From: a virus
Length of the DNA stretch: 64,000 nt
Virus record (IMG/VR): IMGVR_UViG_3300009183_008543
Span: 62,001 to 126,000 of that record
Strand: one strand, 5' to 3'
Shown here: positions 18,512-40,068 of the stretch, piece after piece
Layout: each line of letters starts with the position of its first letter
Position numbering within the stretch: position 1 is the first letter of the stretch
Made by a program: the position numbers and the translations under genes
The notes under the pieces: generated by a model
Database searches by the model: none
Told to the model about the DNA's origin: nothing
What the model saw: only the letters and a program-made list of their open reading frames with translations

Positions 18512-18965
18512 TGCTATCTACGATTTTTGCTGTTATTTTACACTTTTTATTCGATGCGTCTAAAAACTCATCCATGTTTTTTACATTTATCAATACCCAA
18601 TGAGGATCATTTGAAGGAAAATTTTCTTTTTGTGTATAATAAAAAGATTCCAAAGTATATTTGTAAACCTTTTTTTCAACATCTTCTTTAGTCATTCCAT
18701 AAACAAGATCATCACAAACTTCTCTTACTATACGAATAGATTCCTTTTCTGTGGCACAACCAAGATTCCTCATTACAGAAACAGCTGCTTCTGCTTTGTC
18801 TTTATGCAACAAATCAATTATATTTTTCTTCATAAGACCATCAATAAATTCAGCAATTGCGGTATACTTTACCATAATCTGACCTTTTTGTGGCTTATGT
18901 CTTCTGACATCAAAAAAATACTGCTCAAAGTTATTCTCATCAATAATCAATTCTGAATCGCTCAT
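18486..18965 (-). CDS. hypothetical protein (159 aa)
   Basis: Unrecognised. An acidic N-terminus (MSDSELIIDENNFEQYFF) is followed by helices (TAIAEFIDGLMKKNIIDLLHKDKAEAAVSVM) and a strand-like stretch near DPHWVLINVKNMDEFLD. It lies immediately downstream of the polymerase half (1 base between them), so it could be a replication accessory factor, but only position supports that. Confidence 0.65.
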   Translation of the reverse strand: MSDSELIIDENNFEQYFFDVRRHKPQKGQIMVKYTAIAEFIDGLMKKNIIDLLHKDKAEAAVSVMRNLGCATEKESIRIVREVCDDLVYGMTKEDVEKKVYKYTLESFYYTQKENFPSNDPHWVLINVKNMDEFLDASNKKCKITAKIVDSIDDKEKSE

Positions 18966-18966
18966 A

Positions 18967-21684
18967 TTATTCCTCTAAACACTTTTCAAATTGTTTCAAA
19001 ACTTCATCATCCGTTTGATATTTTTCATCATCAGAGGCAGGGTTTTTCAACACAATAACCCTAAAATCTAACTCCTTAGTTGGATATTTCTGTTGCCATC
19101 TTTTGTTTGGATCTCTCAGATTCCTTTCTAATGAATACCCATTAAATCCTCCAGATGGCGGAGAAAGCCTCACTCTAAGTAAGTTATCTTTCTTTAATTC
19201 TTCTTCCCATCTAAAAACATCTTCTTCCCAAAAGAATATTCTGTTTTTTTCTCCCATAGCATCTTCGGCTTCTATAGAGATATAATCTTTTCCATTTTTG
19301 GTTTTGTTTTTTTTTGTAGACAAAACTTTAATCTCGACAGGAACAATGCAATTTTCATGTTCCCGCAAAATTTGAAATGTATACCCCTTAAAATCAGAGC
19401 TTTTCTCCAAGTCATGTTCCCATGCAAATCCATAATATTTCAACTCACAAGATGAAACGCTTCTCAATTCTTTGGCAAATGTTTTATCTATCTGATGATC
19501 ATCGGAATTGAAATCAACAAGTTTTGGCAAATCAAAAACCTTAGATTCATCAAACTTTTTAATCGCCCTTTGTCTTCTTGCCCATATTTTTTTCAATTCT
19601 TTTAACTTATTGTAAGTTTTCTTGACCAACATTTTTTTATAAAATCTTTCAGTCTGAACTTCTACAAAGTCATCAGTGCCTTTGACCTTAATATATTCAA
19701 CCTCAATTCTTCTTTCTCCAGTAGTACTTTCGACAATTTTTTCAGTTTCTATGATTTCATCAATATCATATTTTTTCCATTCTGGATCATCGAAAACATT
19801 ATCGCCAACCAAATCAGTTAACTTTCTAGATTCTCCAACACAAATTTTAGAAAAATCTTCTTCGTAATTTTCCATGCCGTCTATAAATCTTTTTCTCTTG
19901 TCCTCTATTTTTTTAACAGCAGATTTATAATGTTCGTAAAATTTCCAAAGCGTAATTGGATCAGCATCTTTGAAGCAACGCAATCCAACAAGTGCTTTTA
20001 ATATGCTAGCATCTGTTCCAAACTTAAAAAGAAAATCTTCAAAATTTGCATATGGCTGATTATCAACAATTTTTTTCGCTGGTATTTCTCCTACGCCTTT
20101 AATGTTTGACAATCCATAATAGATAACATCATCAACAAGAGAAAAGGTTTCTTTAGACTTATTTATATCGACCTTTTCCATCTCAACATCATGCCGTCTT
20201 GCCTCTATCTTGTAGTCCTTTATTTTATCGCTCAATGTTTCGCAGCTAAGAACAGCAGCGTAAAATTCTTGAGGATGATGAGCCTTTAGATATAATAATC
20301 GAGAAGAAACATAGGTATAAGCAACGGAATGACTCATATTGAAGCCATATTCTGCGAAAGATTTTATCTGTTCCCACAAGCTCTGAACTTCTTCCTGAGT
20401 AGCATCTAGATTTTTTTGTCCATTTTCAATAAACATAATTTCATATTTCTTAAAAGCTTCTGCCTTCTTTTTAGAAATAGCTTTTCTTACAACTTCACAA
20501 TCTCTTAAAGGAATTTCACCAACAATATTTAAAATTTTCATAATCTGTTCTTGAAAAACCATAACTCCATATGTGTTTCCAAGAATAGGCTCAATCAATG
20601 GATGTAAGGTGTATTCTTCTTCTTCTTTTTTTCTTTTCGTATATCTTTCATGCATTAACATGCCAAGAGGACCGGGGCGATACAAAGCCGTATATGCAAC
20701 TAAATCTTCAAATCTATCAACACCACCAGCTTTTACCAATCTTCTTATGCCTTCTGAATCAAATTGAAATATGCATTTCAAATCACCTTCATTTGCCATA
20801 GCCAAAGATTTTTGATCATTTCTCCAAGAAGAAACATCTGTCCAATCAGAGTCATCATTGTTAGCACATATGCTTTTTATATTTTTTCTTTTTTTGACCA
20901 ATTCGCAACATGTAGATATTTGTTTTAAATTAGAAATTACAAGCAAATCGAATTTCACCAAACCTACTGGTTGTAAGTCTTGACCATTAAGACCTTCCAC
21001 CCAAGCAGATGCTTGCGGATTATCTTTTCTTTTTACTAATGGAACCATATCGGACAAAGGAACTGAACTTATAATCAAACCTCCAGCATGTTGACCCATA
21101 CCTCTATTTCTATTGATTAACTTGTGTGCTGCCGCAGTTGCTTCGGGATGATCTTCACAATATTTTTTCAATTTTGGATACAATTCCATGGCAGATTCCC
21201 ATGTCATAACATTTCCATCTTCATCTTTTGAATCAAGATTCTTGGTAAGTTCAAGTATTTCTTCTCTAGGATTGTCGTGAACCCGTGCCATATCAATCAA
21301 GGCACTCTTCATTCCGAAGGTTGTATAGTTGCTAATATTACAAACATATTCTTCACCAAAAGTTTCTAAAGCCCACTTGTTTTTTAAATAATCACGAACT
21401 TCAGACAAATAATCCACATCAATATCTGGCATATCGCCTTGGACAAATTTTGGATCAACATCGACATTAAAATCATCACATATACCAAGAAGCCAAGGAA
21501 CAATGATATTGTTTGTATTTTTAAATTTATTTTTCTCGCTAAATAATTTCAAAAAATATTCAGCTTTTCCTTGAACATCTATTTCTCGAAGCTCCCACTC
21601 AAGCCTTTTGCGATATTTTTCTCCAAGATTTCTTTTGTCGAAAACATGCCACAAACCTTTTTCTAATTTTTGAAAAGCATTCAT
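18967..21684 (-). CDS. DNA polymerase III alpha subunit, palm-fingers-OB half (905 aa)
   Basis: A family C replicative polymerase fragment starting just before the catalytic centre. Palm: PDIDVDY (86-92) with two metal-binding Asp, then KFD (Asp246) as the third. Also GMGQHAGGLIIS (195-206), IFQFDSEGIRRLV, YRPGPLG, YGVMVFQEQIM and FAEYGFNMSHSVAYTYVSSR. A helix-hairpin-helix (YGLSNIKGVGEIPAKKI) and an OB fold (TKNGKDYISIEAEDAMG) follow. The PHP domain and the GPGRGSxxGS palm element are missing here and are found in a separate gene at 34.8-36.1 kb. The ATG at 21684 has TGGAG upstream and is preferred to a TTG four codons earlier. Confidence 0.92.
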   Translation of the reverse strand: MNAFQKLEKGLWHVFDKRNLGEKYRKRLEWELREIDVQGKAEYFLKLFSEKNKFKNTNNIIVPWLLGICDDFNVDVDPKFVQGDMPDIDVDYLSEVRDYLKNKWALETFGEEYVCNISNYTTFGMKSALIDMARVHDNPREEILELTKNLDSKDEDGNVMTWESAMELYPKLKKYCEDHPEATAAAHKLINRNRGMGQHAGGLIISSVPLSDMVPLVKRKDNPQASAWVEGLNGQDLQPVGLVKFDLLVISNLKQISTCCELVKKRKNIKSICANNDDSDWTDVSSWRNDQKSLAMANEGDLKCIFQFDSEGIRRLVKAGGVDRFEDLVAYTALYRPGPLGMLMHERYTKRKKEEEEYTLHPLIEPILGNTYGVMVFQEQIMKILNIVGEIPLRDCEVVRKAISKKKAEAFKKYEIMFIENGQKNLDATQEEVQSLWEQIKSFAEYGFNMSHSVAYTYVSSRLLYLKAHHPQEFYAAVLSCETLSDKIKDYKIEARRHDVEMEKVDINKSKETFSLVDDVIYYGLSNIKGVGEIPAKKIVDNQPYANFEDFLFKFGTDASILKALVGLRCFKDADPITLWKFYEHYKSAVKKIEDKRKRFIDGMENYEEDFSKICVGESRKLTDLVGDNVFDDPEWKKYDIDEIIETEKIVESTTGERRIEVEYIKVKGTDDFVEVQTERFYKKMLVKKTYNKLKELKKIWARRQRAIKKFDESKVFDLPKLVDFNSDDHQIDKTFAKELRSVSSCELKYYGFAWEHDLEKSSDFKGYTFQILREHENCIVPVEIKVLSTKKNKTKNGKDYISIEAEDAMGEKNRIFFWEEDVFRWEEELKKDNLLRVRLSPPSGGFNGYSLERNLRDPNKRWQQKYPTKELDFRVIVLKNPASDDEKYQTDDEVLKQFEKCLEE

Positions 21685-21758
21685 AAGTAACTCCAAATAA
21701 AATGAATTAATATTGTATCACGAAATCTAAATAAATCTAGTCAACAAAAGGAGCATAT

Positions 21759-22130
21759 ATGAATTCATCAAAAGAACAGATATTAAAACTTTCTGGTTTG
21801 ATAAACGAACAACAAGCAGAATTGTCAATTGAAGAATTTGCAGAAAAAAGACATGCTGGTGCAGAAAAAATTGCAAATGCCGCAAAAGAAAAAGGTGGCG
21901 TTGCATTACTTACCTATGATCATTTTCATGTCAAATTACCTTATTACAAAAAAACATCAGAAGGAAAATTCAATCGTAAAAAACTTCAAGAAGAATATAA
22001 AGAGTTATGCTCTGAGCTTCATTCCTATATGGATGATATCGCAAGTATAGACCAATCTAAATTTCAAAAATTAGTTGGCAAAATAGAAGTTGTAGGAGAA
22101 TTGCTTATAAAAAACAAAAAGAGCCTCTAG
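21759..22130 (+). CDS. hypothetical protein (123 aa)
   Basis: Starts after an AAAGGAG site. It is a charged helical protein with a strand-like core (GGVALLTYDHFHVKLPYY) and a Lys/Glu-rich helix (RKKLQEEYKELCSELHSYM). The pattern EFAEKRHAGAEKIANAA is reminiscent of small conserved phage proteins of unknown role. It is the only gene of its plus-strand transcript, which ends at an intrinsic terminator overlapping its stop codon. Divergent from the polymerase gene, with 74 bases between the starts. Confidence 0.7.
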   Translation: MNSSKEQILKLSGLINEQQAELSIEEFAEKRHAGAEKIANAAKEKGGVALLTYDHFHVKLPYYKKTSEGKFNRKKLQEEYKELCSELHSYMDDIASIDQSKFQKLVGKIEVVGELLIKNKKSL

Positions 22131-22154
22131 AAAACTAGAGACTCTTTTTTTTTT
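22118..22154 (+). terminator. intrinsic terminator
   Basis: Stem AAAGAG-C-CTCTAG, loop AAAA, CTAGAG-A-CTCTTT, followed by about seven more T. One C/A mismatch interrupts the stem. It overlaps the last codons of the preceding plus-strand gene. From here to 22372 I see no gene or clear signal; a plus-strand frame at 22221-22490 is antisense to a better gene. Confidence 0.9.
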
Positions 22155-22372
22155 GACTTCGATTTAAAGTTGCTCAAGATCCGATCCCGATCTCGATTAA
22201 TTTTGGCGAGTTACTAAGGAATGTGTGGAAAACTAAAACCCACACTTGAAAGTCAACACAACTTTATTCTTTCAGTCTATCTCTGTGCCAGAGTCTCAAA
22301 TTTGCCAAATTTAAGAATAAGAGTTTTGCACTTTAGTTTATTTAAAGAACACGAAGTCGTGGCTAAGATTGA

Positions 22373-22879
22373 TTACTTATTTTCTGGTAATGGTTTAAAT
22401 TCAATAATAGGCTTTGAATCTTTTATAGGATCAACTTGTGGCTTCGAAGAGTCTGTAGCCTTGCTTGGCATCGTCTTTTTTGGATTTTGACTAGCTCCGC
22501 TAACAGCAGGACAATTCATATCATCACAAGCTTTGTGATAACCTTCTTCATAGGAAATGGTTCGAACATAGTCAACTTGATCCATTCCACGATAATATCC
22601 ACTATGCCAAATTGAAGAAATTTCATTTTCTTCTGGTTTTACATTATTGACAATAGATAATATTCCTTCAATCTTTCCTTGTCCTTTTGCATTTTCCATC
22701 ATGCCATCACGATGACTATTTATTTGACTGTATAATAACTCTGTGTAACCGCTTTGTTGCAAACGATCTTTTTGATCCATCAAGTTAGTAATATCCTTAT
22801 ATGTGTCAATTCGATAAATTTGATACGCATTGACAATCAAAGAAAATCCCAAAACAGTACACAAAACATAATTGCTCAT
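22373..22879 (-). CDS. membrane-anchored hypothetical protein (168 aa)
   Basis: An N-terminal helix (YVLCTVLGFSLIVNAYQIY, residues 4-22) anchors the protein. The middle is charged and helical (KDITNLMDQKDRLQQSGYTELL). The last 45 residues are Pro/Lys/Ser-rich and disordered. GGAGAG lies just before the ATG. The conserved-looking HSGYYRGMDQVDYVRTISYEEGYHKACDD may be a small folded domain. No function assigned. Confidence 0.7.
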   Translation of the reverse strand: MSNYVLCTVLGFSLIVNAYQIYRIDTYKDITNLMDQKDRLQQSGYTELLYSQINSHRDGMMENAKGQGKIEGILSIVNNVKPEENEISSIWHSGYYRGMDQVDYVRTISYEEGYHKACDDMNCPAVSGASQNPKKTMPSKATDSSKPQVDPIKDSKPIIEFKPLPENK

Positions 22880-22983
22880 CCCACTCTCCTCAAATTAAAT
22901 AGTCCTTAAATTCAGTAACGAAAAGTAAAATATCACATTTTTTTTTTAAAATCAAGTCATTGAGACAATTATTTTCATATTTC

Positions 22984-23001
22984 TTCCTTATATATAAGGA
23001 A
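22984..23001. promoter_or_regulatory. 18-bp perfect palindrome with TATATATA core
   Basis: TTCCTTATATATAAGGAA is a perfect palindrome 25 bases before the start codon of the acidic repeat protein. The core contains TATATATA, one base off the T4 late box TATAAATA. It could be a late promoter element or an operator; sequence alone cannot decide. Confidence 0.45.
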
Positions 23002-23026
23002 AGACATTCCGTAAGAGGAGATTACC

Positions 23027-23995
23027 ATGGCGTTTAAGAAATTTAGAGAATATTTAAAAGACGAAAAAAATATCGTTGAAAAACCAGAAGTGCAAAAAGT
23101 TCCCGACTATAAAGGACCTTCTAGCTCTGCTCCACCACAAGCAAAAATGGATAAAAATGCTGGTGGTCATGGTTACAAGGGTTCTGCAAAGCCTTACAGT
23201 GCAGGGAAAAATGCTGCCAATCCAAACAAATCAGAAAAAGGATTTGCACACGAAGGCGACAAAGATCTGAAATATGAACCTAAAGTCGATGTCGATACTA
23301 AAGATCCAGCAAAAGGCGAAGAACTTAAATCTTGGCATAAATCCAAAAGTGTATCTGAATGGCTCCAAAAAACACGCAAATTAAGCAATGCTGGCTTTAT
23401 AAAAGGAATGCAAAATGAAGGTATTGCCTATGGAGTTATAAAAGAAACTATAACCGAATGTGCAAAATCAAATAGAAATGTCGCTCAACTTGTCATGGAA
23501 ATGAAACGAAATAAATTGCTTAAATCTTTGATTTCTGAGATTTGCAGTCACGAATCTGCAATTCCTGCGATTCTTTCAGAAATCAAAAAAAATAGTTTGT
23601 TCTTAAAGTACTTAAATGAATTTCATGATATGGACCATGATGAAAATAATAGTGATGATGAAGAACCTATGGAAATGGATGATGAAGAACCTATGGAAAT
23701 GGATGATGATGAATCCATGGGTGATGACGATGAATCCATGGGTGATGACGATGAATCCATGGGTGATGATGATGAATCCATGGGCGATGACGATGAATCC
23801 ATGGATGATGACGATGAATCCATGGGTGATGATGATGAATCCATGGGTGATGATGATGAATCCATGGGTGATGACGATGAATCCATGGGCGATGATGATG
23901 ACGAATCTGCTCTTTCCAACCCAATTGGAAAACACCATGCAAGAAAAGCATTGAAAAAAATGGGACCACCACCCGGTCCTTCTAGTGAATTCTAA
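23027..23995 (+). CDS. acidic-repeat protein with capsid-targeting-like N-terminus (322 aa)
   Basis: Follows a strong AAGAGGAG site. Begins MAFKKFREYLKDE, similar to the short N-termini of several other genes here. Residues 20-110 are Lys/Pro/Gly-rich and disordered. Residues 110-200 are a helical domain (SVSEWLQKTRKLSNAGFIKG, NVAQLVMEMKRNKLLKSLI). Residues 205-295 consist of a tandem acidic repeat with ten DDDES units, mostly DDDESMG. A short basic tail follows. The acidic block could mimic DNA or nucleate a prohead core. It stands alone between a promoter-like palindrome and a terminator. Confidence 0.8.
   Translation: MAFKKFREYLKDEKNIVEKPEVQKVPDYKGPSSSAPPQAKMDKNAGGHGYKGSAKPYSAGKNAANPNKSEKGFAHEGDKDLKYEPKVDVDTKDPAKGEELKSWHKSKSVSEWLQKTRKLSNAGFIKGMQNEGIAYGVIKETITECAKSNRNVAQLVMEMKRNKLLKSLISEICSHESAIPAILSEIKKNSLFLKYLNEFHDMDHDENNSDDEEPMEMDDEEPMEMDDDESMGDDDESMGDDDESMGDDDESMGDDDESMDDDDESMGDDDESMGDDDESMGDDDESMGDDDDESALSNPIGKHHARKALKKMGPPPGPSSEF
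23700..23905 (+). repeat. 21-bp tandem repeat encoding DDDESMG
   Basis: About ten copies of a 21-base unit (GATGATGACGAATCCATGGGT and close variants) differ only at GAT/GAC and GGT/GGC/GAT positions. Two 18-base units encoding EEPMEMDD precede it. The near-identity suggests recent slippage or recombination, so copy number probably varies between isolates. Confidence 0.95.
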
Positions 23996-23997
23996 AA

Positions 23998-24028
23998 AAA
24001 GCAAGCTCCGAAAGGGGCTTACTTTTTT
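23998..24028 (+). terminator. intrinsic terminator after acidic repeat gene
   Basis: A stem made by AAGCAAGCTCC and GGGGCTTACTT with a GAAA tetraloop, containing one mismatch and one G-U pair, is followed by TTTT and lies directly after the stop codon. It separates this gene from the glycosyltransferase/ligase/giant-protein block. Confidence 0.8.
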
Positions 24029-24059
24029 ATAGCAGGAGGCTTTATCATAGCAGGAGGCT
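24029..24059 (+). promoter_or_regulatory. duplicated ribosome binding site
   Basis: The 13-base segment ATAGCAGGAGGCT occurs twice, at 24029-24041 and 24047-24059. The second AGGAGG lies only three bases before the ATG at 24061, tighter than optimal; the first lies 21 bases away. The duplication may act as a standby ribosome site or be a recent slippage event. Confidence 0.7.
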
Positions 24060-24060
24060 A

Positions 24061-24753
24061 ATGATTTTACATGGAAGTAAAGAAAAAATCTTAATTTGTA
24101 TGCCCACCTATCACTCTAAAATGGAGTGGCTTGTTCGATCTGTAGATTCATTGCACTTTCAAACATATAAGAATTTTGATTGCTATGTTGTAAAAGATGG
24201 ATGCTCAGAATCATGCACATTTACCAATTTTGAAAAAACATGTATTGAATGTGCAGATTGCAAAAAAACAAGAATATTTTTTGAAAAAGTTTGCAAGGCA
24301 GATTCTAGATTTAAATTTTTTACATTGCCAATACATCATAGCGGTGCAGGTTGGGGTCCAAGAAATTTTGCCATCATGAATACACATCACAATTACATTG
24401 GATATCTTGATGATGATAATTGGTATGAAAAAGATCATATAGAATTACTTTATAAAACAATAACTGAAACCAAAAGCGACATGTGCTACACAGGAACCAG
24501 ACTTTACGATCACAACAAAAAAGTTGTCGGAGAAAGAATTCATAATGATATTCCAAAAGCTGGTTATATAGATACTTCTGAGATTATGCACACTAGATAC
24601 CTTATAGAAAAACACGGAGGTTGGCGCTATGTAAAAAAGTGCAATGATTGGGATATAGTTTCAAGATGGGTTCCCGATGTGAAATGGAGTCACACCAACA
24701 AGGTAACACTTAATTTCTTTCTGAGGGATGGATGCGGAATACACAGGAAATAA
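24061..24753 (+). CDS. family 2 glycosyltransferase (230 aa)
   Basis: A classical GT2 GT-A protein. ILICMPTYHSKMEWLVRSVDSL is the opening strand and helix, FDCYVVKDG the second. A four-Cys insert (CSESC, CIECADC) may bind zinc. The site HSGAGWGPRNFAIM is equivalent to GxxxARNxG, and the metal-binding motif is YLDDDNWYEKDH (about 118-129). The acceptor is unknown. The 3' end overlaps the ligase-like gene by 22 bases, tying the two functions together. Confidence 0.85.
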   Translation: MILHGSKEKILICMPTYHSKMEWLVRSVDSLHFQTYKNFDCYVVKDGCSESCTFTNFEKTCIECADCKKTRIFFEKVCKADSRFKFFTLPIHHSGAGWGPRNFAIMNTHHNYIGYLDDDNWYEKDHIELLYKTITETKSDMCYTGTRLYDHNKKVVGERIHNDIPKAGYIDTSEIMHTRYLIEKHGGWRYVKKCNDWDIVSRWVPDVKWSHTNKVTLNFFLRDGCGIHRK

Positions 24754-26012
24754 AACAGTTCATCCAGAAGTGGAAAAACTTCACCGATCCTTCCACGCAA
24801 ATTCCTTACGACTACAAACCAATATGCAAAGATTTACTTCTACACGATGAAGAACTTGTTGTCGAAACAATAGACATACTGAAAAGAAACATATCGTCTT
24901 GGGCAGAAAAAAATTCCGAAATTTATGAAAGTAAAAAAGCCTTTACTTTTTTGGAAAAAAAAGATCTCAACGATAAAAGCAAATGGTATGTAAAATCCTT
25001 GGAAAAGGAATCCATGCCAATGAAAAGTAGCGGAAGCACCACTGGCGAGGGATTTGAATACTTGCGATGGGAACCTTTCCTTTATTTCATCGAAGGAGAA
25101 AACCACTACGACCTTATTCTGGATGAGTACGAAATACCACAGAACCCACACATCATGTACTTTTTTAATTCCTCGTTCGGAAGTGGTCCAAGACACATAA
25201 ACAACACATCGAAAAGCAAGAACTTCATGGAACACCACGGAACGAAAAGAACCGCAATGGTTCATTATGCAAACACAAAACTCCAAAAAGAAAAAGAAGA
25301 AGTATTCCAAAAATATCTACTCAAGTATTTAAATGCAAAAAAAATGGATGTAATATTCGCTCCCGGTCCACAAATAAAAAAAATATGCTCTTATATAAAA
25401 AAGGAAAACTATAAGGGTAAACTGTGCAACTTGTTAAGTAATAGCAATGAGAAACTTCTAGATGAGGATGCTAAGTTCCTTCTGGAAAACAAATATGTAT
25501 CACATATATGCGACCACATGCGGTGTTGGGATGGTGGTGCTTCATTCTTCACATGCAAAGACAAGAACTATCACTTGATGGACAACCTTTCTTGGTGTGT
25601 CGAAAACGAAGAAAGACTTATATCAACCGATTACTTCTCCTTGGCTTGTCCTTTCGTAAAATTCTGGAATGGCGATAGGTGCAAGATAGGCGAGAAATAC
25701 CAGAGATGTTCTTGCGGAAGGTTGTACAGAGATTTTAAATTCTTAGAGAATCGACCCTTCGCCATAAAAGGGCATTCGATCAACGAGTATAAGAAAAAGC
25801 TCATGGAAACTGGTCTTACAGAGATAAAACAGGTGAATTGCGGAAATGATTTCATAGAGATCGTATCTAATAAGGAAATAGATCCATCCAAGAAAGATGA
25901 AGTTGCCAAAATATTTAAGTCTCACAAGTTGAGATTCAAGGTTATTCCAGACCAAATATTGGCATCGCAAAAAGTACAGAACAGAAATCCATCTGGAAAG
26001 GATGGAGACTAA
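24732..26012 (+). CDS. PaaK/CapK-like adenylate-forming enzyme (426 aa)
   Basis: The nucleotide loop SSGSTTGE (99-106) matches the SSGTTGxP/A3 motif of phenylacetate-CoA ligase and CapK-type proteins. Later, FWNGDRCKIGE followed by RCSCGRLYRDFKFLENRP reproduces the family's Y-R-T-G-D ... C-x-C-G-R ... GR series with its Cys pair. A C-terminal ACT/lid-like domain (IKQVNCGNDFIEIVSN) closes it. Such enzymes activate a carboxylate as acyl-AMP and pass it to CoA or a sugar/amine. Flanked by a GT2 gene and a giant Cys-rich protein, it may modify a glycan or protein. Its base use looks GC-richer than its neighbours. Confidence 0.7.
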   Translation: MRNTQEIKQFIQKWKNFTDPSTQIPYDYKPICKDLLLHDEELVVETIDILKRNISSWAEKNSEIYESKKAFTFLEKKDLNDKSKWYVKSLEKESMPMKSSGSTTGEGFEYLRWEPFLYFIEGENHYDLILDEYEIPQNPHIMYFFNSSFGSGPRHINNTSKSKNFMEHHGTKRTAMVHYANTKLQKEKEEVFQKYLLKYLNAKKMDVIFAPGPQIKKICSYIKKENYKGKLCNLLSNSNEKLLDEDAKFLLENKYVSHICDHMRCWDGGASFFTCKDKNYHLMDNLSWCVENEERLISTDYFSLACPFVKFWNGDRCKIGEKYQRCSCGRLYRDFKFLENRPFAIKGHSINEYKKKLMETGLTEIKQVNCGNDFIEIVSNKEIDPSKKDEVAKIFKSHKLRFKVIPDQILASQKVQNRNPSGKDGD

Positions 26013-29000: not shown

Positions 29001-32000
29001 GATGAGACTTGCAAAGACGGAGCTTGCACGGGTTGCCCTTCTCCATGTGCCGAAGACGAATCGTGCTGCGAAGGAGGAACGACATGCTGCAAGGTCTGCT
29101 GTAATGATGGGTGTTGTGCGGATACCGATCATTGCGGAGAAGGTGGTGCATGCACTCCATGCGAATGTACCGCTGGACAAACCTGCTGCGGTCCTAATTG
29201 TTGCGATCCGGGAAAAGAATGCTGTGGTTCTGGAAGTAGTGCAACATGTTGCACCGGAGATCAATACTGCGATGGAACTGGACACTGCGCATCATGCAAC
29301 CCAGTATGCTACCCGAACGAAACATGCTGCGGTGCGTCTGGATGTATAGCAAACAAGTGTGGCGACTGTCCTAATTCGTGTCCAGAAGGAATAGTTTGCT
29401 GCGGTCTTCCTCACCACGAGGTGTGTTGCGGCGAAGGTCAAACTTGTGTCGATAATAAATGTTACGGATGTACGCCTCCTTGTTCGGAAAGTCAAGATTG
29501 CTGCGATGAGGTGTGTACCGAACTTGGAACCGACACAGATTGTACTGGTTGCGGTGCAGCTTGCGGAGAAGGAACAAAATGTTGCGGTGGCTCATGCATA
29601 GATGTGATGGATGATGTGAACAATTGTGGTGGTTGCGGTGTCGTGTGCGAGGAAGATGGTGCAACTCCTCTTTGCTGCGATGGAACTCCGACAGCAAATG
29701 GAACGAATGAAAATTGCTTGAGTTGCGGAGACACAGCCGATCCAGACAATGCGACAAACCCTACATCATGCTGTCCTAAAGCAGTTGTTGTTGCTGGCGC
29801 TCCAGACACCTCGACTTTCTTTGTTACCGCTACAAACAGTGACGACAAGAATTGCGGTGGTTGCGGAAATGTTGCTGACACATCGCCACAAGTGCAAGAA
29901 AAATGCTGTGCGGGTGAAATCGTTAGCCTTTTGACTGATCCAGACAACTGTGGAGGGTGTGGCGTTAGGGTTGTTGATCCTATGAGTTGCTGTCCAAGTT
30001 GGGGTCCGCCAAATCAGTTTGGCGATCTACCAACACCAACCTCTGGTCCAGTAAACACACAAACAGACAACGACCATTGCGGCGGTTGCAACATCCCATG
30101 CAATCCAATAGAAACTGGTGATGACTGCCCACCTCCCGGCGCTCCACCAACGACAAAATGCAAGGATGGCACATGTGTGCCATGCGGAACATGCAAGCTT
30201 CCGACAGAACAACAACAAGCACAATTGTTGGGATCTCAACCAACTGTATGGGGGTCACACACGACCATACCATGCACCTATGACGGATGTCCTATGCCGG
30301 TAACCGATCCGCCAACTCCTGCCCCTCCGGGGAAAACATGCTTCGGTGGCTGTGACTACAAAGCGGTAGGAAATGTTGGAAACCTGTCATGGGAACTGGT
30401 TGGTTGCGAATGCTACGACTCTTGCACACTTCCAGAATGCAACGCCTCAAATCCACATGCCACTCCATGTCCAAGTGTTGGAACCTGTTCTGGAGAAGGA
30501 CCTTGCGGCGGATGCCTTTATGACGACTATGACCATCCTTCTGCATACAAATGCTTCGCGCCATGGGGTCATGATACTGTTAGCTGCGGGAGTCTCTATA
30601 ACTATAGTAGTACATTTGGCTATTGCTGTACGAAAGACGCAAATCATCCAAATGGCGGAGTTCTATGTCTTAGTGGCAGTTGTTCAGGTGCTGCGGGAGA
30701 CTGCGAACCTTGCGGCGGATCATGTGCCGCAGGACTTACATGTTGCGGGGTTTTTCCGAATGATGTGTGTTTGAACCTGAAAACGGATGAAAGTCATTGC
30801 GGATCATGTACGAATGTTTGTGCCGCAGGAGAGACATGCTGTAATAGCTCATGTAAAAATACCAACACAGACAATAACAATTGTGGCGGTTGCGGTATAA
30901 AATGCAGTGGAGTTTCGGAATGTTGCAATGGCAGCTGCAAAGTTCTAAACACTCCAACTAATTGTGGTGCTTGCGGAATAGTATGTACTGTCCTTGAACC
31001 ACTCTGTTGCAACAATAACTGCACACCGTCTGATGAATTCAACTGCGGAGGGTGCGGAAGAACATGTGATGCTGGTGAAAAATGTTGTGATGGTGAATGC
31101 ACAGAGGTGATGGGCGATGACGAATCTAACTGCGGTGATTGTGGCTTTACTTGTGCTTCTAGTGGAACTTGCTGCTCTGGCGAATGTATCGAAAACCAAT
31201 GCGGAACATGTCCTACTGCATGTACCGAAGGTCAGGGATGTTGTGGTACGCCTCCAAATCTAACTTGCACCGATCTTGGAACAGACGAAAACTGTATCAG
31301 TTGTGGCAATGCTTGCGCTGCAGGAACGAAATGTTGCTTTGATGGAGTTGAAAACTTATGCATATCAGTAATGGGTGCTGATAAAAATAACTGTGGCGAT
31401 TGTAACATAATTTGTGAAAATAATGAACGATGTGAAGACGGTGTATGCATAAATTTAAGTGAAGGGTGTGATCCGGAATGTGTTGAGGGAGAAGAATGTT
31501 GCGAAGGAACTGCCTGTTGTAGTCTGCCAGAATTTCAATGTTGCTCTGGCTCATGTACTGCCGTTTTCTCTTTCCAAACAGATAGTTCCAACTGCGGAAG
31601 TTGTGGAAACGCTTGTGCTGCTGGCGAGCAATGTTGCAATGGCGATTGTATTGCCACTAGCTCTTTCCAAACAGATGAATCTAATTGCGGAACTTGTGGT
31701 AACGCTTGTTCCGGAAGCCAAACTTGTTGCTCTGGCTCATGTATCGCCACTAGCTCTCTCCAAACAGATGAAGCAAACTGCGGAACTTGCGGAAACGCTT
31801 GTGGTGCTGGTGAAACATGTTGCTCTGGTGTTTGTAAAGCACTTCAAACAGATGAAGCTAATTGCGGAACTTGCGGAAACGCTTGTGGTGCTGGTCAAGA
31901 ATGTTGTAGTGGTGTTTGCAAAGCCGTACAAACTGATAGTTCCAACTGCGGAACTTGCGGAAACGCTTGTTCCGGAAGCCAAACATGTTGCTCTGGATCA

Positions 32001-33977
32001 TGTATCGCCACTAGCTCTCTCCAAACAGATGAAGCAAACTGCGGAACTTGCGGAAACACTTGTTCCGGAAGCCAAACATGTTGCTCTGGATCATGTATCG
32101 CCACTAGCTCTCTCCAAACAGATGAAGCAAACTGCGGAACTTGCGGAAACGCTTGTGCTGCTGGTGAACTATGTTGTTCTGGTGTTTGCAAAGCCGTACA
32201 AACAGATGAAGCTAATTGCGGAACTTGCGGAAACGCTTGTGCTGCTGGCGAACTATGTTGTTCTGGTGTTTGCAAAGCCGTACAAACAGATGAAGCTAAT
32301 TGCGGAACTTGCGGAAACGCTTGTTCCGGAAGCCAAACTTGCTGCTCTGGATCATGTATCGCCACTATCTCTCTCCAAACAGATGAAGCAAACTGCGGAA
32401 CTTGCGGAAACACTTGTTCCGGAAGCCAAACATGTTGCTCTGGCTCATGTATCGCCACTAGCTCTCTCCAAACAGATGAAGCAAACTGCGGAACTTGTGG
32501 TAACGCCTGTAGTGCTGGCGAACTATGTTGTGGTGGTGTTTGTAAAATCGTACAAATAGATGAAGCTAACTGCGGAACTTGTGGTAACACTTGTGGTCTT
32601 GGTCAAGAATGTTGTAGTGGTGTTTGTAAATCATTACAAACAGATGAATTTAATTGCGGAACTTGCGGAAACACTTGTGGTGCTGGCGAACTATGTTGTT
32701 CTGGTGTTTGCAAAACCGTACAAACAGATGTAATAAACTGCGGAACTTGTGGTAACACTTGTGGTCTTGGTCAAGAATGTTGTAGTGGTGTTTGCACAGT
32801 ATTTCAAATAGATGAAGACAATTGCGGAAGTTGTGGAAACGCTTGTGCTGCTGGAGAAACTTGTTGTAATAGCGTTTGCACAGTATTACAAACAGATGAA
32901 GGTAATTGCGGAATTTGCGGAAACATGTGTGGTGCTGGTCAAGAATGTTGCTCTGGTGTTTGTAAATCAGTACAAACAGATGAAGCTAATTGCGGAACTT
33001 GTGGAACTGTATGTGGTGCTGGTCAAGAATGTTGCTCTGGTGTTTGCAAATCAATACAAACAGATGAAGAAAATTGTGGAACATGTGGAACTGCATGTGC
33101 TTCTGGCTACACATGTTGCTCTGGTGTTTGTAGAAACACAGCAACCGATCTCAGCAATTGTGGAACATGCGGAAGCTCTTGTAGCGGAACATGTTGCAAC
33201 GGCTTTTGCAAAGCGACATATGAGGATGAATTAAATTGTGGTGATTGCGGAATAGAATGTGCTGTTGGCGAAACATGTTGCTATAGCATCCTTTTGAACA
33301 CTGGAGTTTGCAAAGCCGTACTAACAGATGAAGCTAATTGTGGAACTTGTGGAAACACTTGTGCTGCTGGTTACACATGTTGCTCTGGTGTCTGCAAAGC
33401 ACTTCAAACAGATGAAGCTAATTGCGGAACTTGCGGAAGTGTATGTTCTGCTGGCTACACATGTTGTGATGGTGTCTGCAAAGCACTTCAAACAGATGAA
33501 GCAAACTGTGGAACTTGCGGAAACGCTTGTGCTGCTGGAGAAACTTGTTGCTCTGGTGTTTGTGCAAATACAGAAACAAGTTCATCTAATTGTGGATCTT
33601 GCGGACACGCTTGTGCTGCTGGAGAAACTTGCGAAGAAGGAATTTGCTCTCTGCCTCCACTAACAATAAAATTAGTTTTCCGTGCTTTCGCATGTGCAAG
33701 TAATTTTTCAAATCTTTCAAGTGAGCTTTCTGCTGGATCTAGAAGTGTTAGCTTCACAATCACTGTCAGTGGAACTACTTTTGCCAGTGGTTCTGTTTCA
33801 AACATTGGACCCGGAGGAGTTGCAGCAACCTTAGCATCAATTACGATTCCAACAGGAACATCATTTAATATAAATATAAGTGGATATGCTGGATCTGCAA
33901 TTATTGGTAGTACTAGAGCATCTGGTCAACTGACTTATACTGGTGCTGTTAAAACTGCAGATAATAATGCATGTTAA
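26013..33977 (+). CDS. giant cysteine-rich Stig1-like repeat protein (2654 aa)
   Basis: The largest gene in the window. Apart from about 100 N-terminal and 115 C-terminal residues, it consists of dozens of units of the form G-x-x-CC-x-G-x-C-x-x-x-x-x-D-x-x-N-C-G-x-C-G-x-x-C, roughly 45-50 N-C-G-x-C-like cores by eye, as in Stig1-type repeats. Several larger Trp/Cys/Pro modules (for example CTLEECSYTWDAQTC) are interspersed. The C-terminal cap is Ser/Thr/Gly-rich and looks like a beta sandwich. No signal peptide or membrane helix is visible. A disulfide-stabilised or metal-rich fibre or adhesin on the virion is the likeliest use. It directly abuts the ligase gene and ends at a strong terminator. 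Confidence 0.85.
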   Translation: MIDPKLVENWNIIFALADKACGHFATYEAIVLVPRPCTGGSSAYWTLGTSCPDGCTSSPPSELPTNPPCDPNYPDNGTENDIIGCCGGIVEVECTGTCCNCGGVQCEPSETCCDNVCVDLQTDHDHCGGCPIVCEPSESCKNGVCKGACASSNCSWTWSEGCQADCAYVLLDGVYVQNQFCTEGSNCICPAAPAVTESSPLYVYISCVGNPRPSGVWSQTSTCPQGCTCPEEAPTTNGTTNGQVITHECVSCSPPCGEGQDCCGGECKNIYEDSNNCDGCGNVCPEATPTCCNGECCVSNNCCSVDGTNTCIDVMNDPNHCGDCITFCSGPETTTPQKCCHGECKFTETDNENCGSCDFPCPVGYTCCFGVCKELYGDDRLNCGDCGKTCPVGEFCKDGNCVDPCTLEECSYTWDAQTCTFMYNNPNGYKICSGTAVMKWVPTGPPSDPDSITGTCPGRWDTVVPCEYSDNCGCINGYGFEQTIGPCWEYTQECYCGQRNDVITPCGAIFPVLDPVIGWAGGTWEQLTDCDGCPKPVDPPAIPACMGQTYSFNCAGSWIYRPCPSCVCPINEPLREGTPNEKVSSPCKNCDPACGANQKCCNHVCKNILTDVRNCGDCGRDCGSAAGTACCRGTCVNTLTEELYCGGCNTVCAWSETCCNGFCKDTHTDPANCGSCGHPCAAGEVCCNSFCVNTNTDRNNCGSCPFVCPNADKCIDGRCVPCDPPCLEAGTACCNNSCIDILSDENNCGGCNIPCAGKCCNGSCVLDLNTMYNCGDCGIACPQMINQINLWQCCNGQCKNLKTDPENCGFCGRVCQEPPGDTFKVPKCFLGNCAEPECVCLGGETPGPDDVVFVSTCLGNTISCEGSCYFENVGGSWVLHEEPGGTGFSGSCGKEPDYTYCVDDKYACVGDIYYCVKPIEGQDMPTYCIPKPSFDPLAQALIGSYIGAENCAAGCSGDGSCPDGCANGLTCCNTECVDTQTDSANCGGCGGGPCASDETCKDGACTGCPSPCAEDESCCEGGTTCCKVCCNDGCCADTDHCGEGGACTPCECTAGQTCCGPNCCDPGKECCGSGSSATCCTGDQYCDGTGHCASCNPVCYPNETCCGASGCIANKCGDCPNSCPEGIVCCGLPHHEVCCGEGQTCVDNKCYGCTPPCSESQDCCDEVCTELGTDTDCTGCGAACGEGTKCCGGSCIDVMDDVNNCGGCGVVCEEDGATPLCCDGTPTANGTNENCLSCGDTADPDNATNPTSCCPKAVVVAGAPDTSTFFVTATNSDDKNCGGCGNVADTSPQVQEKCCAGEIVSLLTDPDNCGGCGVRVVDPMSCCPSWGPPNQFGDLPTPTSGPVNTQTDNDHCGGCNIPCNPIETGDDCPPPGAPPTTKCKDGTCVPCGTCKLPTEQQQAQLLGSQPTVWGSHTTIPCTYDGCPMPVTDPPTPAPPGKTCFGGCDYKAVGNVGNLSWELVGCECYDSCTLPECNASNPHATPCPSVGTCSGEGPCGGCLYDDYDHPSAYKCFAPWGHDTVSCGSLYNYSSTFGYCCTKDANHPNGGVLCLSGSCSGAAGDCEPCGGSCAAGLTCCGVFPNDVCLNLKTDESHCGSCTNVCAAGETCCNSSCKNTNTDNNNCGGCGIKCSGVSECCNGSCKVLNTPTNCGACGIVCTVLEPLCCNNNCTPSDEFNCGGCGRTCDAGEKCCDGECTEVMGDDESNCGDCGFTCASSGTCCSGECIENQCGTCPTACTEGQGCCGTPPNLTCTDLGTDENCISCGNACAAGTKCCFDGVENLCISVMGADKNNCGDCNIICENNERCEDGVCINLSEGCDPECVEGEECCEGTACCSLPEFQCCSGSCTAVFSFQTDSSNCGSCGNACAAGEQCCNGDCIATSSFQTDESNCGTCGNACSGSQTCCSGSCIATSSLQTDEANCGTCGNACGAGETCCSGVCKALQTDEANCGTCGNACGAGQECCSGVCKAVQTDSSNCGTCGNACSGSQTCCSGSCIATSSLQTDEANCGTCGNTCSGSQTCCSGSCIATSSLQTDEANCGTCGNACAAGELCCSGVCKAVQTDEANCGTCGNACAAGELCCSGVCKAVQTDEANCGTCGNACSGSQTCCSGSCIATISLQTDEANCGTCGNTCSGSQTCCSGSCIATSSLQTDEANCGTCGNACSAGELCCGGVCKIVQIDEANCGTCGNTCGLGQECCSGVCKSLQTDEFNCGTCGNTCGAGELCCSGVCKTVQTDVINCGTCGNTCGLGQECCSGVCTVFQIDEDNCGSCGNACAAGETCCNSVCTVLQTDEGNCGICGNMCGAGQECCSGVCKSVQTDEANCGTCGTVCGAGQECCSGVCKSIQTDEENCGTCGTACASGYTCCSGVCRNTATDLSNCGTCGSSCSGTCCNGFCKATYEDELNCGDCGIECAVGETCCYSILLNTGVCKAVLTDEANCGTCGNTCAAGYTCCSGVCKALQTDEANCGTCGSVCSAGYTCCDGVCKALQTDEANCGTCGNACAAGETCCSGVCANTETSSSNCGSCGHACAAGETCEEGICSLPPLTIKLVFRAFACASNFSNLSSELSAGSRSVSFTITVSGTTFASGSVSNIGPGGVAATLASITIPTGTSFNINISGYAGSAIIGSTRASGQLTYTGAVKTADNNAC
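31540..33640 (+). repeat. near-identical DNA repeats in giant gene
   Basis: This third of the giant gene is made of units of about 84-105 bases, such as CAAACAGATGAAGCTAATTG followed by CGGAACTTGCGGAAACGCTT, with long exact stretches shared between copies. Two unit types alternate: an SGSQTCCSGSCIATSSL type and an AAGELCCSGVCKAV type. The identity is far above that among the N-terminal repeats, which implies recent amplification or gene conversion and makes this stretch prone to assembly collapse. Confidence 0.95.
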
Positions 33978-33981
33978 AAAA

Positions 33982-34013
33982 ACAGGCTTGAAAATCAAGC
34001 CTGTTTTTTTTCT
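33982..34013. terminator. bidirectional intrinsic terminator
   Basis: ACAGGCTTGA and TCAAGCCTGT pair perfectly around AAA, flanked by a run of A on the left and T on the right. It begins 4 bases after the stop of the giant gene and also lies downstream of the convergent minus-strand membrane protein gene, so it can serve both strands. Confidence 0.95.
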
Positions 34014-34030
34014 TTAATTTATAATTTTTT

Positions 34031-34333
34031 CTATTCTTTGTAGGCTACCCATCGGTTACGAACAAATAAAAGATTTGCAAAAAACCCGCAAAAGGCAGAA
34101 ATGAGATTTCCCGCAAACGGAACATATAGTTCGCCTACTGGATTAAGCACGAATGAAATTCCCAATGAAAACCAAAAACTGCTGCATTCATGGCAGAGCA
34201 TTGGAACATTAACATACGGTATCTTGGCTACCAAGTTTCTAAAAGGTCGTGCAACATCGGTATCAGACCAAGCGTAAGCGACACCAAGACATGTGACCAA
34301 ATAAATCAAAAACATCATAGGAAATATACCCAC
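34031..34333 (-). CDS. small multi-pass membrane protein (100 aa)
   Basis: Three hydrophobic segments (PMMFLIYLVTCLGVAYAW, FWFSLGISFVL, LISAFCGFFANLLFV) separated by a loop with DTDVARPFR and CHECSSFW. A CxxC next to FW after the first helix is typical of small phage and bacterial membrane proteins of the DUF1360 kind, but I hold this only loosely. Its start overlaps the end of the upstream gene by 19 bases. Confidence 0.65.
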   Translation of the reverse strand: MGIFPMMFLIYLVTCLGVAYAWSDTDVARPFRNLVAKIPYVNVPMLCHECSSFWFSLGISFVLNPVGELYVPFAGNLISAFCGFFANLLFVRNRWVAYKE

Positions 34334-34734
34334 ATATAGTCAAATTCTCGAACAACAGAGAAACTTCTGAATGTTTTTCCAACAATAGTCTTGTTGAAAT
34401 TAGCCCAAGCTTCATCACCAAGCTGAACCTTGAATACTTTGCCACCAATAGCATTGTTTACTCTTTTTAGCCTAATAGCTTCGAGTTCTTTGACTATCGC
34501 AGCCTTGTCCTTGTAATACTTTTCCAAGATATTCGGATCAGTAGTCACTTTATCTGAAAAGAACTTGCCAACCTTACCTCTGCATGAGCAGTTTGGGTTG
34601 GTCTTTAATGTTGTTAGGTCGGCAAGAATATCTGGAAATTCCGCCTTTAGTTCAGCGAATGAACTTTCGTCCTTGATGATCATATAGATGAGATCTGGCA
34701 TCGTGCCAAGATCTACAGTGATTGTAGTTTCCAT
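34315..34734 (-). CDS. hypothetical protein (139 aa)
   Basis: Unrecognised. A helical N-terminus (MPDLIYMIIKDESSFAELKAEFP), one CSC near residue 50, a Lys/Glu helix (YYKDKAAIVKELEAIRLKR) and a strand-rich end (KTFRSFSVVREFDYMWVYFL). Directly downstream of the PHP half of the polymerase, in the same direction. Confidence 0.7.
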   Translation of the reverse strand: METTITVDLGTMPDLIYMIIKDESSFAELKAEFPDILADLTTLKTNPNCSCRGKVGKFFSDKVTTDPNILEKYYKDKAAIVKELEAIRLKRVNNAIGGKVFKVQLGDEAWANFNKTIVGKTFRSFSVVREFDYMWVYFL

Positions 34735-34785
34735 AAAATTAATATAGTTTTATTGTTTTATTTTTTTGATTTTTAAAAATATTTT

Positions 34786-36135
34786 TTACAAATCAAAACA
34801 AATAGATCTACCGCCTCTAGCCTCAGACATGAATCGACTAAACAAAAGACCTTCATATACTGGATCTACATCAGTAATTCCAAGACAATAGCAAATTAAA
34901 GAACCACAAGCACTTCCCCTTCCGGGTCCAACAGCTTGAGTTCCATCGCCACCTATATTTTCTCTGCACCACCTTCTTGCTTCATCAGTCATCATCTTTT
35001 GAATAAGAAAATATGTACTAAAACCTTTACGAGTTATAAGGCTCAACTCTTCAATTATTCTATTTTTATACTCTGTAGTCATTGGCAAATTACGATGTTT
35101 AAATCCTCTCAAGACTTCATCCTTAAGCCTTTGGTCACAATCTGGAAATATAGGTAGTTTCAGACTTCTATCTAATTCGACACCTTTTGCTTTACGACAA
35201 ATCTCTACTGTATTTTTTTTAGCTTCGCAAAAAATTTCATAAGGAATAATATCTTTATAATCACTCAGCCACTTTTCATTAAGTTCTTCCTCAGATTTCA
35301 TCCATAGATTAGCATCCTGCAATTCGAAGAAATCCTGCATTGAATCTTCTTTCATTGCCCTTTGAATTTCTTTTAATGTTCTGTTGGTCTGAACCATCAA
35401 CATAAGTCTTTGCAAGTGACTATCTTCTTTACGGCAATAATGACAATCTTGCGTAAGAATAATCTTCAATCCAAATTTCTGCTTTGCTTTAACAATAAAA
35501 GCGTCATAAGGTTTTTGTTTAACAAAATCTAAAAGCATAATTTCAAGCAGATAATTTTCTTTACCAAACATCTGAATGTATCGTTCTATCATTTGAAATC
35601 CAGCTTCTTCTCCGCCAGCATCAAATGCTCTGCCAACTTCGCTGTTATAGCAACAACTTGTAAAAAATAAGCCTTCTTTATGCTTCTCAAGTTGTTCGTA
35701 ATTTACTCTTGGCTTTCTATAAAATCCTTTCGTCCAACCCCAAGATGTCAAACGAACAAGATTTTTATATCCAGTTTCATTGTATGCTATGGCTAATAAG
35801 TGTGGACTTGCTCTCAGTTCCAATAATTCACTTGGAGAGAGAGATTCAGAAAATTTTTGCATGTCTGACAAAGAAGAGGATTGCGGTTGCAATCTATTTA
35901 CATAAAGTTCCGCAGCGAATATGGGAGAAAGTTTATTTTTCCCATATTTATCACATATCTTTTCGCATGCTTTAATTTGTCTGGGAACTGCTCCCAACAT
36001 GCCATGATCACTAATTGTAAGAAAATTTTGATTTATTTCTGTAGCACGAACCGAATATTCTTCGCATGTTCCAAGCCCATCGAGGACGGAAAAATCGGAG
36101 TAACTAATGAAGGTGGAGATGTTCAAAACCAACAA
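34786..36135 (-). CDS. DNA polymerase III alpha subunit, PHP half (449 aa in the long frame)
   Basis: The N-terminal half of a family C polymerase. PHP elements: SDFSVLDGLGT, LTISDHGMLGAV, IFAAELYV, a LVRLTSWGW segment and ILTQDCHYCRKED. It then enters the palm with VGPGRGSACGSLICYCLGIT and DVDPVYEGLLFSRFMSEARG, and stops at RSICFDL, just where PDxDxD should follow; that motif is in the gene at 18.97-21.68 kb. The long frame starts at a TTG (36135) and lacks PHP motif I. A better placed ATG at 36148 encodes HLHLH but hits TAG in another frame (see the hairpin entry), so the true product may need a +1 shift. Confidence 0.88.
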   Translation of the reverse strand: MLVLNISTFISYSDFSVLDGLGTCEEYSVRATEINQNFLTISDHGMLGAVPRQIKACEKICDKYGKNKLSPIFAAELYVNRLQPQSSSLSDMQKFSESLSPSELLELRASPHLLAIAYNETGYKNLVRLTSWGWTKGFYRKPRVNYEQLEKHKEGLFFTSCCYNSEVGRAFDAGGEEAGFQMIERYIQMFGKENYLLEIMLLDFVKQKPYDAFIVKAKQKFGLKIILTQDCHYCRKEDSHLQRLMLMVQTNRTLKEIQRAMKEDSMQDFFELQDANLWMKSEEELNEKWLSDYKDIIPYEIFCEAKKNTVEICRKAKGVELDRSLKLPIFPDCDQRLKDEVLRGFKHRNLPMTTEYKNRIIEELSLITRKGFSTYFLIQKMMTDEARRWCRENIGGDGTQAVGPGRGSACGSLICYCLGITDVDPVYEGLLFSRFMSEARGGRSICFDL

Positions 36136-36157
36136 TCTCCACCTTCATTGTTACTCC
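36097..36157 (-). promoter_or_regulatory. 23-bp hairpin over the start of the PHP-half gene
   Basis: In the minus-strand transcript, GGAGTAAC-AATGAAGGTGGAGAT (36157-36135) pairs with ATCTCCACCTTCATT-A-GTTACTCC (36120-36097), with one bulged base and a 14-base loop. The 5' arm holds the ribosome binding site and the ATG at 36148, so folding should block initiation. That ATG reads a 14-residue peptide, MKVEIVGFEHLHLH, and stops at TAG (36104-36106). HLHLH is PHP motif I, and the next expected residues (SDFSVLDG) are in the +1 frame. Confidence 0.85.
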
Positions 36158-36963: not shown

Positions 36964-36967
36964 AAAA

Positions 36968-36990
36968 CCTCCAATATATTTAGTTGGAGG
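36968..36990 (-). promoter_or_regulatory. hairpin sequestering the HNH gene ribosome binding site
   Basis: In the minus-strand transcript, CCTCCAA (36990-36984) pairs with TTGGAGG (36974-36968) across a 9-base loop. The second arm is the ribosome binding site, four bases before the ATG at 36963. This is the arrangement known from T4 homing endonuclease genes, where it keeps early translation low. Confidence 0.75.
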
Positions 36991-37036
36991 CTTCACAATT
37001 ATTTCAATCTTTTAGACGGTTCTGCAGAATTAAAAG

Positions 37037-38847: not shown

Positions 38848-38865
38848 CTTATAAATCCTTAAATT

Positions 38866-40062: not shown

Positions 40063-40068
40063 GTTCTA

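Follow-up and report, generated by a model that had tools for sequence, protein, structure and literature searches.

Here, we present an analysis of a family C DNA polymerase that is distributed over two genes in the genome of an environmental phage. The DNA under study, called the window in the following, comprises 64,000 nucleotides and corresponds to positions 62,001 to 126,000 of the 136,406-base IMG/VR virus record IMGVR_UViG_3300009183_008543, a virus contig without known completeness. One gene encodes the PHP domain together with the GS element of the palm (PHP half), the other the catalytic aspartates, the fingers and the HhH domain (palm half). We consider it fairly likely that the two genes encode two subunits of one family C polymerase which arose by duplication and reciprocal loss and share one active site, and that the interrupted start of the PHP gene is bypassed during translation.

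A family C DNA polymerase split over two genes

Both genes, the PHP half gene (34786-36148) and the palm half gene (18967-21684, with an in-frame TTG upstream at 21696), are translated from the minus strand, the plus-strand reading being full of stops, and the gap between them amounts to 13.1 kb (21697-34785). Their features are the following:

36107..36148, minus strand: leader of the PHP half (ATG ... KVEIVGFEHLHLH), 14 codons behind AAAGGAG, which also folds into a hairpin
36100..36106, minus strand: 7-base interruption TAGTTAC between a His and a Ser codon, with a stop and a change of frame; missing in uninterrupted relatives, e.g. L012
34786..36099, minus strand: body of the PHP half after the interruption (SDFSVLDG ... 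SEARGGRSICFDL, stop), defined by translation, PF02811 and PF07733 3-98, and kept in relatives
34801..35064, minus strand: first copy of the duplicated segment, consisting of helix, GS element and next strand
34912..34929, minus strand: GPGRGS, the palm GS element carried by the PHP half
18967..21684, minus strand: palm half with the diverged GS-segment copy, catalytic Asp strands, fingers, HhH and C-terminal part
21400..21618, minus strand: second, diverged copy of the GS segment (RLEWELREIDVQGKAEYF ... NTNNIIVPWLLGI) in the palm half
21508..21519, minus strand: NxNN motif (NTNN) of the palm half at the position of GRGS
21409..21429, minus strand: PDIDVDY of the palm half, the catalytic Asp pair
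20947..20955, minus strand: KFD of the palm half, the third catalytic Asp

The PHP half matches PF02811 and model positions 3-98 of PF07733, and the palm half matches model positions 100-259 of PF07733, the fingers family PF17657 and the HHH_6 family PF14579. Model positions 98 and 100 thus mark the cut, with GPGRGS on one side and PDIDVD on the other; GPGRGS occurs in the PHP half only, PDIDVDY and KFD in the palm half only. A preliminary description of this DNA had claimed a DnaE split into two genes about 13 kb apart and cut next to the catalytic Asp motif. Both proteins were indeed found where it had placed them on the minus strand, with complementary Pfam domains and with the motifs divided as claimed. 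For the PHP gene, its end was borne out and its start at TTG 36135 was not: the good start is ATG 36148 behind AAAGGAG, in a frame that is broken after HLHLH by TAG and TTAC. A complete DnaE gene elsewhere was also looked for, and no further PF07733 match was detected in the record of the window.

All domains of family C (PHP domain, PF07733 catalytic domain, fingers and HhH) are present but spread over two genes, and the GS element, DxD and third Asp are all present but on two proteins, so that the enzyme is not a single polypeptide. Judged by its sequence, it is a variant of the family C DNA polymerases and not an ordinary member.

A duplicated segment on both sides of the cut

The preliminary description had also noted overlapping homology of the two halves. 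Profile against profile, the overlap stretches (RLEWELREIDVQGKAEYFL and RIIEELSLITRKGFSTYFL) were matched with an E-value of 9.1e-6 over 27 columns, corresponding to the first helix, and with 3.5e-5 in the reverse direction. The rest of the overlap was matched by pattern, AVGPGRGSAxGSLxCYCLGITDVDPI in the PHP half versus NxNNLLVxYLLGIVxDFDI in the palm half, where GRGS is replaced by NxNN or NxNG. The PF07733 match extends over the diverged copy in several relatives (7-260 in G038, 2-260 in G040, 3-259 in G004 and G022). The gap between the patterns of the two copies is bridged by group B (L161, L163, L165 and L166; palm identity 30-34%), in which the second copy still reads N[KQ]NGLxxxxLLxxTxVxP. 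In L161 it is NKNGLVFPYLLDMTPVDP, and PF07733 aligns through the second copy in L161 and L166.

In L166, the halves are adjacent in one frame and only six bases (TAG TTT) apart, with no gene between them, and a single open frame of 1276 codons, running across the TAG, was returned by the genome search. Five of the 40 long frames of this contig end with TAG. At the other four, the next stop follows only 2-6 codons on, so the TAG between the halves looks like a stop; a reassignment of TAG in this phage is unsupported by the frame ends in the contig. Of the split palm halves with a legible start that was read, none has lost its copy of the segment. In the window's group, SEARGGR or a variant of it is followed by 5 to about 40 residues at the end of the PHP halves, and the palm halves begin with the same stretch, which takes up 60-70 residues ahead of PDIDID.

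The overlap and the arrangement in L166 would be explained by an internal tandem duplication, a stop between the copies and reciprocal loss, and would not be accounted for by insertion of an endonuclease. Splitting by a homing endonuclease, as in T4 genes 39/60 or nrdA of Aeh1, is an improbable origin of the two genes. HNH genes do lie beside the PHP gene in the window and in relatives, but they are located upstream of the PHP start, away from the cut; the most compact pair (L166) is without an intervening gene, and an insertion would not leave a duplicated overlap. The scan for endonucleases between the halves covered only two of the window genes.

Still further from probable is a rejoining of the halves by RNA or protein trans-splicing to one normal mature chain. 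It would find some support in intein-like sequences elsewhere in the genes of relatives and in the group I introns that interrupt the PHP gene in L044 and L062. Yet a simple join would duplicate the segment, because both halves carry overlapping diverged copies of it, and halves as close as the six bases of L166 also speak against it. No intein family was matched in either half of the window, in line with the intein-free junctions of the preliminary description, and no intron family at either cut edge, the listed rows being far below the families' own cut-offs. As a separate observation, the intein-like insertions, recognised by reading, are located between FA and CELY in L038 and L061 and between GPGRG and S in L040; further palm insertions occur near residues 347 and 454 in L023, L032, L016 and others.

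Conservation of the split pair in relatives

The split is real and common to a deep lineage of environmental phages. Loci of relatives were gathered by scans with both halves as queries. By PF07733, one PHP half and one palm half were found in 38 of 43 virus records (25 of 27 in the first set, 13 of 16 in the second). Two of the remaining records are fused (G033 = L139 and W01 = LR756511) and three are incomplete, G005 having the PHP half only, G025 only fragments of the PHP half, and G030 the palm half only. A third PF07733 match is absent from 36 of the 37 other two-half records; in the exception, G034, it is a distant DnaE-like frame of 573 codons. Such a frame lies at L179 3885-5606 (record of L124), contains the whole PF07733 domain and is distant from the split pair.

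In 102 of 103 loci matching both queries (fused outgroups included) the halves are encoded on the same strand, and in the split loci measured the PHP half precedes the palm half, with 292 bases to 9.6 kb between the matched domain ends (limited by the flanks). The evolutionary distances of the two halves are correlated (r 0.89, 19 rows), a value reached in none of 2000 permutations. The two genes have been passed on as a pair throughout a deep lineage, with other genes moving in between. Among the genes between the halves is, in the window, one for a cysteine-rich repeat protein of 2654 amino acids (26013-33977, plus strand) with 23 stretches matching PF04885 Stig1; phage tmRNA genes are found between the halves in L044 (13703-14061) and L062 (16721-17096).

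RGS (R395, G396, S397) is invariant in 32 of 32 aligned PHP halves, a few halves reading GPARGS, and DxD, KFD and NxNN (N56, N58, N59) are invariant in 19 of 19 aligned palm halves. NxHN instead of NxNN was found in L121, L135, L142, L144, L146 and L158. The decay of one half in the aligned relatives, named in the preliminary description as a finding that would speak against a split enzyme, is ruled out by these invariant motifs.

Structure models of the two halves

The palm half, modelled alone as a single chain from the 19-row alignment, reached a mean predicted local distance difference test score (pLDDT) of 79 and a predicted template modelling score of 0.57, with 721 of 905 residues at a pLDDT of at least 70. 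Values below 50 were obtained at residues 81-94, 117-123, 192-202, 206-208, 212-250 and 861-864. The stretches 81-94, 117-123 and most of 192-250 are those of PDIDVD and KFD; in this model, the Asp strands are unfolded. The best solved matches are PolIIIalpha structures (7pu7 with E 3.0e-25 and a template modelling score of 0.40 by query length). The PHP half, modelled for the relative L012 from 30 rows, has a mean pLDDT of 82 with a tail below 50 from residue 439, and matches PolIIIalpha 2hpi with Z 32.5 and a root-mean-square deviation of 11.9 over 382 aligned residues.

These results bear on the question of whether the palm half might be a self-sufficient polymerase in which NxNN replaces the GS element, the PHP half being a separate nuclease or accessory protein that kept GRGS for folding or another purpose. 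The invariance of NxNN and the retention of the segment copy in all split palm halves with a start read would agree with such an enzyme. We nevertheless regard it as unlikely, since an RGS invariant in all aligned PHP halves would be odd for a leftover, the fused relatives retain GRGS and have no NxNN copy, and the palm core is unfolded in the single-chain model.

Fused relatives and history of the split

Relatives with a fused gene, which the preliminary description had proposed to look for, are the two mentioned above, L139 (1185 amino acids) and LR756511 (1179 amino acids), with GRGS and the Asp motif in one chain. The fused pair is placed inside group A beside L115 in the PHP tree (98/96) and in the concatenated tree (97/99), from which L166 and L007 were left out as long branches. 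A clade of group A and three members of group B without the fused pair is rejected (p 2.7e-4 for the palm, p 3.6e-5 for the PHP half; L166 was also left out of the clade tests). On these trees, one split and one re-fusion would be the simplest history, and the two fused relatives probably arose by re-fusion.

An interrupted start of the PHP gene

In uninterrupted relatives, the PHP gene starts in one frame with EIVGFEHLHLH[ST]DFSxLDG or close to it. In the window, the start reads MKVEIVGFEHLHLH, followed by TAG, TTAC and then SDFSVLDG in the +1 frame, the break being at codon 14. Among 62 distinct PHP starts, 34 are interrupted and 27 uninterrupted, and L068 was not placed since its frame is broken in the contig. 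The interrupted starts comprise 21 with gaps of 5-8 bases, seven with hairpin inserts (40-47 bases where measured singly; two inserts of 54 bases in total in L067; L016 without a length), three (L049, L055, L059) with a 6-base TAA insert a few codons later, and three with a group I intron (L044-46 and L062 by Rfam RF00028, L146 by an intron-like 3′ end only). These classes were set by hand: L047, L135 and L158 (uninterrupted), L115 (short gap) and L146 (intron-like) were placed by reading, L016, at first among the 7-base gaps, was reassigned to the hairpin inserts, and the TAA type, initially counted as zero-gap, was set apart. In L044 and L062, the intron is located at the codon of the 6-base inserts.

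The gap lengths (5, 6, 7, 8, 40, 41, 42, 47 and 54) cover all three residues modulo 3. In the printed gaps of 5-8 bases, the last His codon is directly followed by a stop (TAG, once TGA), as the search pattern required; L019 and L028, with gaps of 40-41 bases, have none there. Immediately ahead of the resume codon stands TAC, TAT, AAC, GAC, CTT, GTC, AAT or CAA, versus CAT or CAC at take-off; the TAA type alone has Leu codons on both sides of the gap.

In the short and hairpin types, a stem built from codons stands immediately ahead of the gap. The longest perfect helix near the leader measures 7-15 bp in 27 rows of the short and hairpin types versus 4-6 bp in 27 zero-gap rows (including the three of TAA type). 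The stem statistics used short-gap stems only, of which 13 are distinct: all 13 are fully paired (156 of 156 cells, 0 of 500 shuffles as high) and their covariation score exceeds all 500 shuffles, the number of pair types (5) not being above shuffles (489 of 500). The leader has a ratio of nonsynonymous to synonymous polymorphism (pN/pS) of 0.158 in 16 distinct interrupted and 0.205 in 18 uninterrupted starts; in the shifted frames, the values are 1.7 and 3.9 (interrupted) and 1.0 and 2.4 (uninterrupted). By this measure the leader evolves as protein. In the body, eight further conserved Asp, His, Glu or Cys positions of the PHP domain do not vary in any of the 32 aligned halves, whether interrupted or not; we take these positions to be of the metal-binding kind, with His residues of the same site in the leader.

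On a tree built from the remainder of the protein (51 rows, 47 of them labelled), the interruption requires 16 changes, compared with a shuffle mean of 15.4 (349 of 500 shuffles as low). It is scattered at random on the tree and does not follow descent. An assembly error in the window was rejected, as six further contigs carry the identical 43-base element. A start of translation right behind the hairpin was rejected for lack of a common start codon in the resumed frame, and frameshifting in a single direction because of the gap lengths. Taken together, the sequences indicate that the interruption is probably a mobile translational-bypass site working like that of T4 gene 60.

A competing explanation invokes ordinary frameshifting, readthrough of the stop, or initiation inside the gene downstream of the break, with the leader as a relic. 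Some gaps do keep the frame (6 bases in L057, L049, L055 and L059; 42 in L124), and in the window an ATT codon lies at the break in the frame that is resumed. The spread of gap lengths over all three residues argues against it, as do the leader pN/pS of 0.16 and several starts in which the resumed frame offers neither ATG nor GTG nor TTG ahead of the conserved SDFS. We rate this explanation as doubtful, though less so than a self-sufficient palm half.

Directly upstream of the interrupted gene, another gene is located:

36169..36996, minus strand: HNH endonuclease gene (phrog_559, E 1.8e-17; no Pfam match), the TGA of which overlaps an in-frame ATG (36172)

An HNH-like gene or remnant lies upstream in 13 of 32 interrupted versus 2 of 23 uninterrupted loci (Fisher p 0.013, the rows not being independent). 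The count refers to loci including near-copies, with remnants of 34-51 residues counted; L115 and L146 were left out of it and of the tree test.

Further upstream, genes for SpoVR, DUF444 (YeaH-like) and PrkA kinase stand in a row directly next to the PHP and HNH genes (37270-42141, minus strand), and frames with the same C-terminal end are found upstream in some relatives, such as L008, L010 and L012. The window also encodes two translation factors, initiation factor IF-3 with both domains (4699-5256, minus strand) and peptide deformylase (10581-11081, minus strand), which are of interest beside a recoding site.

Proposed mechanism and points against it

We propose that an ancestral dnaE gained a tandem copy of about 100 codons, which spanned the helix, the GS element and the strand preceding the Asp motif. 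Closure of the frame between the copies would then have given a PHP protein ending past GPGRGS and a palm protein beginning before PDxDxD. By reciprocal loss, the Asp strand would have become a tail in the PHP half, and GRGS would have become NxNG or NxNN in the palm half. The two proteins would bind non-covalently, the PHP half lending its GS element to an active site with the Asp residues of the palm half, and the PHP domain would remain a metal-dependent (proofreading) nuclease. In this genome, a complete PHP protein would require ribosomes to get across the 7-base interruption that follows HLHLH, for which bypassing of the stop with the help of the hairpin is the most likely way. The interruption would be a mobile site tied to an HNH homing-type gene.

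More tentatively, this scheme may be extended. The active site of two polypeptides, formed by duplication and reciprocal loss, would later have been re-fused in some lineages, and the interruptions would form a class of mobile, very short bypass elements (gaps of 5-54 bases, a 5′ hairpin built from codons, no matched landing codons) that descend from, or are interchangeable with, group I introns at the same codons. For this combination as a whole, we would put the chances at somewhat less than even.

A family A polymerase is also encoded in the genome of the window (G000 128073-128870, minus strand; locus L180, frame of 467 codons) and in 11 of 15 other records.

Several points weigh against the proposed mechanism. 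The bypass is argued from sequence alone, and the direct profile match of the two copies spans no more than 27 columns. The 43 records are fragments and include several near-copies, such as G026 and the window's own. In L040, the sole opposite-strand case among the 103 loci, a palm piece (residues 348-857) is located at 18259-19698. Readthrough of the TAG in L166 would give one chain with both copies, and an NxNN that is invariant in the 19 aligned palm halves suggests some role for the copy that the palm half itself carries. The low pLDDT of the palm core may be an effect of the alignments, which are shallow (19 and 30 rows) and were used for single chains. Stem pairs changed on both sides (3) are not above shuffles (150 of 500 as high). 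In the palm tree, the fused pair joins group A (100/100) and may be its sister (78/77), and group A alone as a clade is not rejected with the concatenated data (p 0.138), so that two independent similar splits are possible. Finally, with a family A polymerase in the same genome, the main replicase may be an enzyme other than the split one.

The findings point to an active site to which two proteins contribute, and to a natural family of sites at which ribosomes would skip part of the message. With the two signature motifs on different proteins, the assembly of a nucleotidyltransferase palm is open to direct testing. Fission and probable re-fusion of a single gene can be followed in the series that leads from L166 to the window, together with the fused relatives. 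Should the interrupted starts be bypassed, natural bypass sites would be numerous in phage genomes, and uninterrupted sister genes could serve as controls.

Comparison with known systems

The two halves together show the PHP, palm, fingers and HhH domains and the GRGS, PDxDxD and KxD motifs of bacterial DNA polymerase III alpha (DnaE), with 2hpi, 5fku and 7pu7 as solved relatives. DnaE is one chain, whereas here the palm is cut between GS and DxD and partly duplicated. In the split DnaE of cyanobacteria, intein halves are located at the cut; in contrast, the window halves match no intein family. In some actinobacteriophages, too, DnaE is spread over separate genes (Crestdrop gp56/57, Terapin gp65/67, Zenon gp74/76 and Trina gp101/102). 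In these four phages, the cut is at the border of PHP and palm, and the palm gene has both the GS element and PDxDxD, unlike the case described here.

Two assembling chains are also described for the T4 topoisomerase 39/60, NrdA of Aeh1 and gene 43A/43B of Aeromonas phage 25, the halves of the latter co-purifying and polymerising (PMC2988022). These genes were split by or near homing endonucleases, gene 43 belongs to family B, and no reciprocal duplicate is reported in the portion of the article at hand (PMC2988022). According to the accessible parts of two further articles, PolB of MIJ3 (PMC6892783) and PolA of MEP401 (PMC10580990) are encoded in two open reading frames with an intein or an inserted reading frame at the cut; they belong to families B and A, unlike the family C enzyme of the window. 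In the open-licence literature, surveyed by title and start of the abstract, no description of this split or of these gaps was found.

For bypassing, the excerpt of a review names T4 gene 60 and one possible further phage case (PMC5009743). In gene 60, a 5′ stem-loop is thought to pull the mRNA, a homing endonuclease gene is its neighbour, and an origin from a group I intron is suspected. The interrupted PHP starts resemble it in the stop at take-off, the 5′ stem-loop, the neighbouring HNH gene in some loci and the group I introns at nearly the same place in relatives. They differ in that the gaps are mostly of 5-8 bases, the short-gap type is without a matched landing codon, variants are many and the scatter on the tree is random. 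Because gap size and matched codons differ, the PHP starts are described as working like gene 60 bypassing, not as a member of that system.

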